Assembly: GCA_002070455.1 (NCBI GenBank)
Contig: MWDG01000016.1
Span: forward strand, 1-43,801
DNA: 43,801 nucleotides
Direction: 5' to 3'
Source: Deltaproteobacteria bacterium ADurb.Bin151
GTDB lineage: Bacteria; Desulfobacterota; Syntrophia; Syntrophales; Smithellaceae
Position numbers and translations under genes: made by a program. Below are positions 35,270-37,005 of the stretch, piece by piece; position 1 is the stretch's first letter, and the number at the start of each line of letters is the position of its first letter. The notes beneath the pieces were generated by a model. The model was not told where the DNA came from. It worked only from the letters and a program-made list of their open reading frames with translations, and ran no database searches.

Positions 35270-35299
35270 TTGACTAATTGAGACAAATTGTGATATTTT
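35270..35299 (+). promoter_or_regulatory. Candidate promoter upstream of hflX
   Basis: TTGACT (35270-35275) and TATTTT (35294-35299) are separated by 18 bases, in the AT-rich gap after the MFS gene. The predicted start of transcription lies about 30 bases before the inferred beginning of hflX. Confidence 0.4.
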
Positions 35300-35337
35300 T
35301 TCAAATATGGAACTCATGAAGGCAGGGGCGGCTAACC

Positions 35338-37005
35338 ATCAATAAGATATTCGGCAATACATCAGGGCTGCGTGCCCAGCAAATCAAATCTCTGGAACGT
35401 CTTTATCGCCGTGGCATCCCTCCGGAAAGCATTCTCAGCAATGAACTGGCCCGGGAATTGTCCTTTCTTTCCAGTGCTCTCAACCGCCAAATCGGTCTGC
35501 TGATCAACCGCAAAGGTGAAATCAGCATGGTCATTCTCGGAGACCACAAGGGCATATTTATTCCCAGCCTTGACATCTTCCGCGCAGCCTCTACACGGTT
35601 CAAAGGCCTGCGCTTGATTCACACACATTTAGACGGCGAAACGCTTTCCCCTGAAGACATGACAGACTTGTCGCACCTCAGACTGGACATGATCGGCGCG
35701 CTGCAGGTCTGTGAAGACGGCTCTCCCGGAAAACTTTTCTGGGCCCATTTGATTCCGGAAAATCCGCAGGGAAATTATTGGCTTATCCATGAACCACAGG
35801 AGCCTCACCGCCTCGATCTGAATTTTCTTTCTTTCATCATCGCGCTGGAAGATGAATTTGCCAGGCAGCAAAAAACCCGAAAAATTGAAGCAACGGAAAA
35901 AGCCATTCTCGTGCGGGTCGAAAAAAATCCTCTTGCCGGCGCGGAAGCTTCTTTGGAAGAGCTCCGGCAATTGGCAGAGACCTGCGGTGTGGCCGTTTTC
36001 GACAGCCAGATTCAATATCGGCCGCAGCCGGACCCGAGGTATCTTGTCGGCAGGGGCAAATTATCGGATATTGATCTGCGGGCCACACAAATCGGCGCAA
36101 ATCTGCTGATCTTCGACCACGAACTGACCCCTGCACAGGTCCGTTCCATCAGTGATTTCACAGGGTTGAAAATTCTCGACCGGACGCAGGTGATCCTGGA
36201 CATCTTCGCGCACCGCGCCCACAGCAGGGAAGGAAAGATACAGGTGGAGCTCGCTCAGCTCAAATATCTGCTGCCCAGGCTGATGCATAAAGACACATCC
36301 CTGTCCCGCCTTGCCGGCGGCATCGGCGGCGTGGGTCCCGGCGAAACCAAACTGGAAATTGACCGACGACGCGTTCGTGAACGCATCAATCGCCTGGAAA
36401 AGGATTTAAAGGACATCACGAAATCACGCGGACAGCGCCGGGGAAGGAGGAAGCGATCGGGACTGCCCGTGATTTCTATTGTTGGTTACACCAACGCGGG
36501 AAAATCGACGTTGCTCAACACCCTCACGCAAAGCACTGTTCTGGCGGAGGACAAGCTCTTTGCCACATTGGACACGAAAAGCGCCAGACTGCGCTTTCCG
36601 CGCGATACGGAGGCGGTCATTACGGACACAGTCGGTTTCATCCGCAAACTGCCCCGAGAACTTTTCAGCGCCTTCCGGGCAACACTCGATGAACTCCATG
36701 AAGCTGATTTGCTTTTGCACGTCATCGACATCAGCAATCCCCAATTTGAAGAACAGGTTGCAGCCGTTGAAAACATCCTGGAAGAACTCGAAATATCCGG
36801 GAAACCATGCATCCGGGTCTTTAACAAAGCCGACCGCTTTAAGGACAGGGAATTGCTGGCTGATATCAGCAAACGATATAATGCCGTTGCTGTTTCCGCC
36901 CTGGATAAAAACTCTCTTTTCGGGCTTTTGGAAAAAATCGAAGCGGCACTGCCCAATACAAACTTTTCAGGAAAGCCTTTTTGTGCTAGGGAAGAAGAGA
37001 TTTGA
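35338..37005 (+). CDS. hflX: GTPase HflX, with no canonical start codon at its conserved N-terminus
   Basis: Ribosome-associated GTPase that splits or rescues stalled ribosomes. The protein has the HflX N-domain, G-R-G-K-L-S-D-I, the glycine-rich S-R-L-A-G-G-I-G-G-V-G-P-G-E-T-K linker and a G domain: G1 G-Y-T-N-A-G-K-S-T, G3 D-T-V-G-F-I-R-K-L and G4 N-K-A-D. The reading frame before the first canonical start (TTG at 35458) still encodes the family's typical N-terminus, I-F-G-N-T-S-G-L-R. The frame is closed by a TGA at 35317, and no ATG, GTG or TTG lies between. An ATC at 35338 with AGGGGCGG upstream is where an ATG would be expected. Either a rare start, a mutation or a base error explains this. 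Confidence 0.9.
   Translation: MNKIFGNTSGLRAQQIKSLERLYRRGIPPESILSNELARELSFLSSALNRQIGLLINRKGEISMVILGDHKGIFIPSLDIFRAASTRFKGLRLIHTHLDGETLSPEDMTDLSHLRLDMIGALQVCEDGSPGKLFWAHLIPENPQGNYWLIHEPQEPHRLDLNFLSFIIALEDEFARQQKTRKIEATEKAILVRVEKNPLAGAEASLEELRQLAETCGVAVFDSQIQYRPQPDPRYLVGRGKLSDIDLRATQIGANLLIFDHELTPAQVRSISDFTGLKILDRTQVILDIFAHRAHSREGKIQVELAQLKYLLPRLMHKDTSLSRLAGGIGGVGPGETKLEIDRRRVRERINRLEKDLKDITKSRGQRRGRRKRSGLPVISIVGYTNAGKSTLLNTLTQSTVLAEDKLFATLDTKSARLRFPRDTEAVITDTVGFIRKLPRELFSAFRATLDELHEADLLLHVIDISNPQFEEQVAAVENILEELEISGKPCIRVFNKADRFKDRELLADISKRYNAVAVSALDKNSLFGLLEKIEAALPNTNFSGKPFCAREEEI

Follow-up and report, generated by a model that had tools for sequence, protein, structure and literature searches.

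The hflX gene of Deltaproteobacteria bacterium ADurb.Bin151 almost certainly begins at an AUC codon, as judged by comparison with related genomes. The codon lies at position 35338 of the window (the whole stretch of 43,801 nucleotides that was analysed, contig MWDG01000016.1). Taken as a whole, the best explanation is that this AUC is a real start codon, kept weak by selection and, like that of infC, probably read through IF3; we consider this combined explanation likely. Hereafter AUH denotes AUC, AUU or AUA, and NUG denotes the canonical class of ATG, GTG and TTG. The features of the region are as follows.

35270-35275, forward strand: TTGACT, a putative -35-like hexamer for a promoter of sigma-70 type immediately upstream of hflX (consensus match only).
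35292-35297, forward strand: putative -10-like hexamer GATATT, with a 16-nt spacer and a TG before it (consensus scan).
35307-35345, forward strand: 12-codon frame MELMKAGAANHQ with ATG at 35307, a second in-frame ATG at 35316 and TAA at 35343-35345, which overlaps the hflX start in another frame.
35319-35328, forward strand: G-rich, Shine-Dalgarno-like stretch AAGGCAGGGG (from the sequence, and from the purine peak of the AUH relatives at about -12 to -8 before the start codon).
35338-35340, forward strand: ATC, the almost certain start codon of hflX (AUH at the aligned column in 173 of 213 distinct starts).
35338-37005, forward strand: hflX, long form, 555 codons plus stop if begun at the ATC (frame and profile matches).
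35338-35877, forward strand: N-terminal domain of HflX, residues about 1-180 (to 200), with a putative JAMM/MPN-like fold (predicted structure).
35458-35460, forward strand: TTG, the first canonical in-frame start codon, rejected as the start (conservation and predicted fold).

The protein read from ATC 35338 is an HflX, with a TIGR03156 score of 453.1 bits (cut-off 216.75) and the Pfam domains GTP-bdg_N, GTP-bdg_M and MMR_HSR1. An earlier sequence-only reading had held that its frame lacks ATG, GTG and TTG from the TGA at 35317 to the TTG at 35458, and reading of the codons confirmed this: after the TGA (35317-35319), the codons from 35320 to 35457 include none of the three. The earliest canonical start in the hflX frame is thus TTG 35458, which is codon 41 counted from the ATC; an in-frame stop lies 7 codons upstream of the ATC, with no NUG in between. 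The same reading had placed the ATC downstream of a G-rich Shine-Dalgarno-like run, and AAGGCAGGGG was indeed found at 35319-35328. By eye this stretch is poorer than in most relatives and of middling quality. The promoter consensus scan before hflX gave 2 overlapping matches, against a mean of 0.2 in shuffles; with a sigma-70-like promoter at 35270-35297, the hflX leader would be short. RNA folding of the leader (35304-35390) was no better than in shuffles (z 0.78).

The hflX loci were collected from 59 related genomes, from contigs of named genomes, from order, class and phylum searches and from extra stretches, which gave 245 loci. The named-contig scan yielded 31 loci, 30 of them titled Smithella, Smithellaceae, Syntrophaceae or Deltaproteobacteria and one Tissierellia. 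The searches used the GTDB groups, which place Smithella in Desulfobacterota; in the NCBI taxonomy, Smithella is within Thermodesulfobacteriota. One incomplete locus (L013) was removed, as were 31 loci that duplicate another from -30 to +60; this left 213 distinct starts, the window included. The short-form locus L059 stands outside the 245; also outside the counts are L425, a few order-level places and partial or second matches (e.g. G015 C70, G008 C24, G142 C1 and G108 C69). The phylum search matched 177 of 198 genomes, and 104 distinct long-form starts outside the order were read among the matches listed.

The codon aligned with 35338 was ATC in 99 starts, ATT in 47, ATA in 27, ATG in 7, GTG in 4, TTG in 3 and another codon in 26, and AUH therefore stood at the exact column in 173 of the 213, window included, which exceeds chance. 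No NUG occurred between the upstream in-frame stop and codon 5 in 136 of the 213 starts (the stop was not reached in 6). A strict classification covered four codons before to three after the aligned codon, and any NUG within that range made a start NUG-possible; 175 starts were AUH-only, 35 NUG-possible and 3 neither. The AUH-only class included all 35 starts of the family, 66 of 72 from other members of the order, 72 of 104 from other members of the phylum, and both of those from two further contigs. Among the 56 families outside the order (family numbers were hand-copied from the phylum search table), 41 had at least one AUH-only member and 33 were exclusively AUH-only; 15 had none. AUC initiation had been one of three possibilities offered by the sequence-only reading, where it was called rare. 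The initiation itself is supported by these comparisons; the rarity is not, since no other start type is as common as AUH among the long-form hflX genes of the phylum. The upstream neighbours of hflX vary among the relatives, and no conserved operon was found.

From the alignment, the aligned AUH codon is judged to be the hflX start and not an internal isoleucine. In the AUH rows, pairwise identity within the family was 5-8% at codons -12 to -6, with 1-8 stops per column. At codons -4 and -3, where the Shine-Dalgarno stretch lies, it was 56% and 26% within the family and about 20% beyond it. Downstream of the aligned start codon, protein conservation was high. Starts were also called by Shine-Dalgarno fit with a caller blind to codon identity, which resolves about one codon; the alignment was given more weight. 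Only 107 of 204 loci had their best fit at an AUH codon, owing to that resolution, and in 164 of the 204 the fit fell within one codon of the aligned column; 9 more loci had no fit. On the window it picked the codon two before ATC 35338.

A tree was built with FastTree from some 87 residues after the start, the first eight omitted. For so short a tree, with no tested support, the change counts are rough minima. By parsimony, the third base of the ATN codon underwent a minimum of 46 changes within the set A, C and T, against only 4 to or from G; at the four-fold sites of codons 6-90, G makes up 28.6% of 9728. These indicate that the codon is free within AUH and kept away from AUG. For the three-way start class (AUH-only, NUG-possible or neither) the minimum is 25 changes, which means that NUG starts arose repeatedly, often at a neighbouring codon. 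Together with the 15 of 56 families without an AUH-only member, these changes suggest that a canonical hflX start is tolerated in many lineages. Low yield is quite probably the trait under selection, and AUH, conserved over much of the phylum, is probably kept because its weakness is useful. Conservation in most of the relatives examined suggests that the weak hflX start would be a built-in brake, not an error.

Two other genes were read as controls. In frr, the ribosome recycling factor gene, 29 of 30 loci have a NUG no more than three codons away from the start given by the alignment; in the thirtieth (L359), an ATG lies just beyond three codons. The infC gene of the window genome starts with AUH, namely GGGGAGGTGCCAT-ATA. 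Of 50 infC loci, 44 had the motif and 6 had none, and at least one of the 44 (L257) was matched at the wrong place and counted as NUG-possible. Under the strict rule, 26 of the 44 were AUH-only, 14 NUG-possible and 4 neither; 12 of the NUG-possible loci also had an AUH, and their NUG was mostly a GTG inside the Shine-Dalgarno sequence. One infC locus (L265, genome G181) has neither NUG nor AUH before the motif, and an in-frame CTG after its Shine-Dalgarno sequence is a possible start. Genomes G153 and G190 combine an ATG hflX with an AUH infC (L261 and L260), so the start types of the two genes are not strictly linked.

Other groups of hflX were also compared. Long-form hflX mostly has NUG in the phylum to which the Tissierellia genome (G338) belongs: 17 of 21 loci with the N-terminus in one set and 26 of 29 in another, overlapping set. 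Four genomes of that phylum have AUH without NUG (L286 ATT, L287 ATA, L302 ATC and L303 ATC); these may be scattered gains, or the starts may have been lost elsewhere. Short-form hflX of the window's phylum was sampled in 28 loci; L396 and L400 had no usable start, and L425 proved to be a long form at a contig edge. A NUG within 15 codons before the conserved domain was present in 21 of the 28, and the seven others are L395, L397, L398, L399 and L401 (family f59), L412 and L416. The five f59 loci have an ACG at Shine-Dalgarno distance; L398 and L401 share an identical upstream stretch, and in L397 and L399 the whole open frame is without NUG. The start also looks like ACG in three long-form loci of family f34 (L159, L180 and L181). 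In L412 and L416, the 22 and 70 codons, respectively, that precede the conserved domain contain no NUG; L412 has an in-frame CTG at Shine-Dalgarno distance, and CTG or other weak starts are possible for both.

The following mechanism is proposed. The Shine-Dalgarno-like stretch would position the 30S subunit at AUC 35338, and the initiator tRNA would pair with two of the three bases, so that HflX would begin with (formyl)methionine. The weak codon would keep the ribosome-splitting GTPase scarce. By analogy with infC, where IF3 rejects non-NUG starts, it might also make hflX translation dependent on IF3, and the output of HflX would then rise together with that of IF3 whenever there is too little IF3 for the free 30S subunits. 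IF3 keeps the ribosomal subunits apart. Since both hflX and infC start at AUH, both would be made under this shortage, and a 70S-splitting factor and a subunit-separating factor would rise together. The lack of NUG, the position and conservation of the codon, the scarcity of G at its third base and the AUH of infC in the window genome are observed; initiation at the AUC, its low yield, its IF3 dependence and the physiological link are inferred. Reading through IF3 is probable, by extension from other genes; whether control of HflX through IF3 levels matters in the cell is an even call. A more tentative proposal, which we hold at somewhat less than even, is that hflX and infC form a pair under one translational gauge in most of the phylum, with selection mostly blocking the one-base change to AUG at hflX. 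With a non-NUG start kept in most of a phylum, the gene of the ribosome-splitting GTPase would stand beside infC as a further ribosome-cycle gene governed by the fidelity of start-codon choice, and one could test directly for a control loop that links IF3 to the splitting of ribosomes.

The strongest competing explanation is that AUH is only a fixed low-yield start, which would keep HflX scarce in all conditions with no sensing of IF3; it is the less likely account, yet a serious one. Such a start has been proposed for E. coli pcnB (cited in PMC1780047 and PMC13009471). The ACG codons at Shine-Dalgarno distance in the f59 short forms and the f34 long forms also point this way, as any weak codon may do; if these are starts, it is weakness that has been kept and not the AUH sequence itself. 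Against this, IF3 discriminates against non-NUG starts generally, and some IF3 dependence is therefore mechanically expected.

Several known systems resemble the proposed one. According to PMC5472188, IF3 represses non-NUG starts, infC uses this repression for autocontrol, and only a small number of bacterial non-NUG starts that are conserved have been characterised. The infC gene, with AUU, AUC or AUA (ATA in the window genome), shares with hflX an AUH behind a Shine-Dalgarno sequence and a product that acts on ribosomal subunits; however, the factor that discriminates is IF3 and not the hflX product, and hflX would therefore be controlled via the level of another protein and not by autocontrol. 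In Streptomyces sigR a non-canonical start also serves as an IF3-sensitive brake on a regulator; the codon is GTC and not AUH, and repression by IF3 through it has been shown by experiment for sigR (PMC5472188). The AUU of E. coli pcnB is likewise a yield-limiting AUH start, in a different gene with another function (cited in PMC1780047, where it is printed pncB, and among the references of PMC13009471). The yield of AUA and AUU starts in S. aureus is about 10% of that of AUG, and for ccpN up to 30% in rich medium, according to PMC13009471. The same paper describes ccpN (AUA) and cvfC1 (AUU) as conserved AUH starts found by initiation profiling; cvfC1 is conserved among Staphylococci and ccpN is shared with B. 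subtilis, whereas the hflX set is spread over a phylum. An AUU start has been suggested for lepA, also a ribosome GTPase gene, which needs it for full length; two species are named there, and that text does not mention HflX (PMC1780047). Splitting of the 70S ribosome is known for other HflX proteins (PMC12493154, and the title of PMC4770234). The window protein belongs to the same HflX GTPase family (TIGR03156), and differs in an additional N-terminal domain of about 180-200 residues and in its AUH start.

Like the infC-type AUH genes, hflX has no NUG near the N-terminus, an AUH behind a Shine-Dalgarno sequence and a varying third base. It would thus join an already known class of conserved AUH-start genes. 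No publication on the hflX start codon was found in a literature search judged by title and the start of the abstract; few subscription papers were covered, and such an absence is weak evidence.

Very unlikely is an explanation by the short frame upstream, in which ribosomes would start at ATG 35307 or 35316 and shift +1 into hflX, or in which the frame would act by stop-and-restart coupling. A nine-codon frame at 35316-35345 had been noticed before; it is present, as the tail of the 12-codon frame that opens at ATG 35307. The three closest species (L002, L003 and L016) have a recognisable counterpart and a less perfect Shine-Dalgarno stretch. The TAA overlaps hflX codons 2-3, and a stop just after the AUC makes stop-and-restart coupling possible. 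An ATG in the frame of this short stretch within 61 bases before the start is found in 32 of the 213 loci; however, its distance differs among the 32, and the 181 others are without it and most are nevertheless AUH. The short frame thus does not explain the general AUH pattern, and a frameshift was rejected as the general explanation. Many short frames end alike because codons 1-3 often spell ATCAATAA, and no slippery site of a familiar type was recognised. Coupling could supplement initiation at the AUC, but would not substitute for it.

Still less likely is translation from TTG 35458, with the preceding 40 codons as an untranslated leader. This TTG is the first canonical in-frame codon, and a gene finder limited to ATG, GTG and TTG would choose it or a later one. 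Residues 1-40, however, are conserved as protein and belong to the predicted fold. Across 29 aligned HflX proteins, G6 and G10 never vary, and L11, Y23, P29 and R39 occur in at least 90%; in the predicted model residues 1-40 are folded, with block pLDDT values of 78, 90, 87 and 92. A start at TTG 35458 was rejected, as strand 4-6, helix 13-24 and a portion of helix 35-48 would be lost. The sequence-only reading had named, as a point against the upstream start, relatives whose hflX opens at the counterpart of 35458; none was found among the 213, and the conserved sequence sets in at the ATC. Where no earlier NUG exists (136 loci), the position of the first NUG varies, with a median at codon 44 and a range of 8 to 134. 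By inference, annotation with ATG, GTG and TTG only would truncate the HflX proteins of these bacteria, that of the window by 40 residues, and would break an N-terminal domain that the Pfam and NCBIfam models do not match.

Least likely of all is a sequencing error or a recent start-codon mutation in the window genome, as the sequence-only reading had also offered: one assembly by itself could not exclude either, but each of the 35 distinct starts of the family, the window among them, is AUH, and starts are AUH-only in 175 of 213 overall, from different species and across much of the phylum.

The N-terminal 180-200 residues have no match of their own among the Pfam or NCBIfam models. Their predicted fold is most like that of JAMM/MPN proteins, with weak scores. 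The first three PDB structure matches are or look like JAMM/MPN proteins; a COP9 signalosome chain and P. furiosus JAMM1 are among the matches, and RadC, AMSH and AF2198 are found further down; a single match has E below 0.001 (5.1e-4), and the query TM-scores are 0.25-0.33. A literature search judged by titles gave no publication on HflX with JAMM. The window domain contains the motif HTHLxGExLxxxD, with HTH...D at residues 95-107, and H95, H97 and D107 are invariant in 29 sequences. The spacing is one shorter than in the JAMM/MPN metal motif HxHx7SxxD, and the S position varies. The full motif spacing, HTHPSGDxRLSxxD, is found in L286, L291 and L292 of another phylum.
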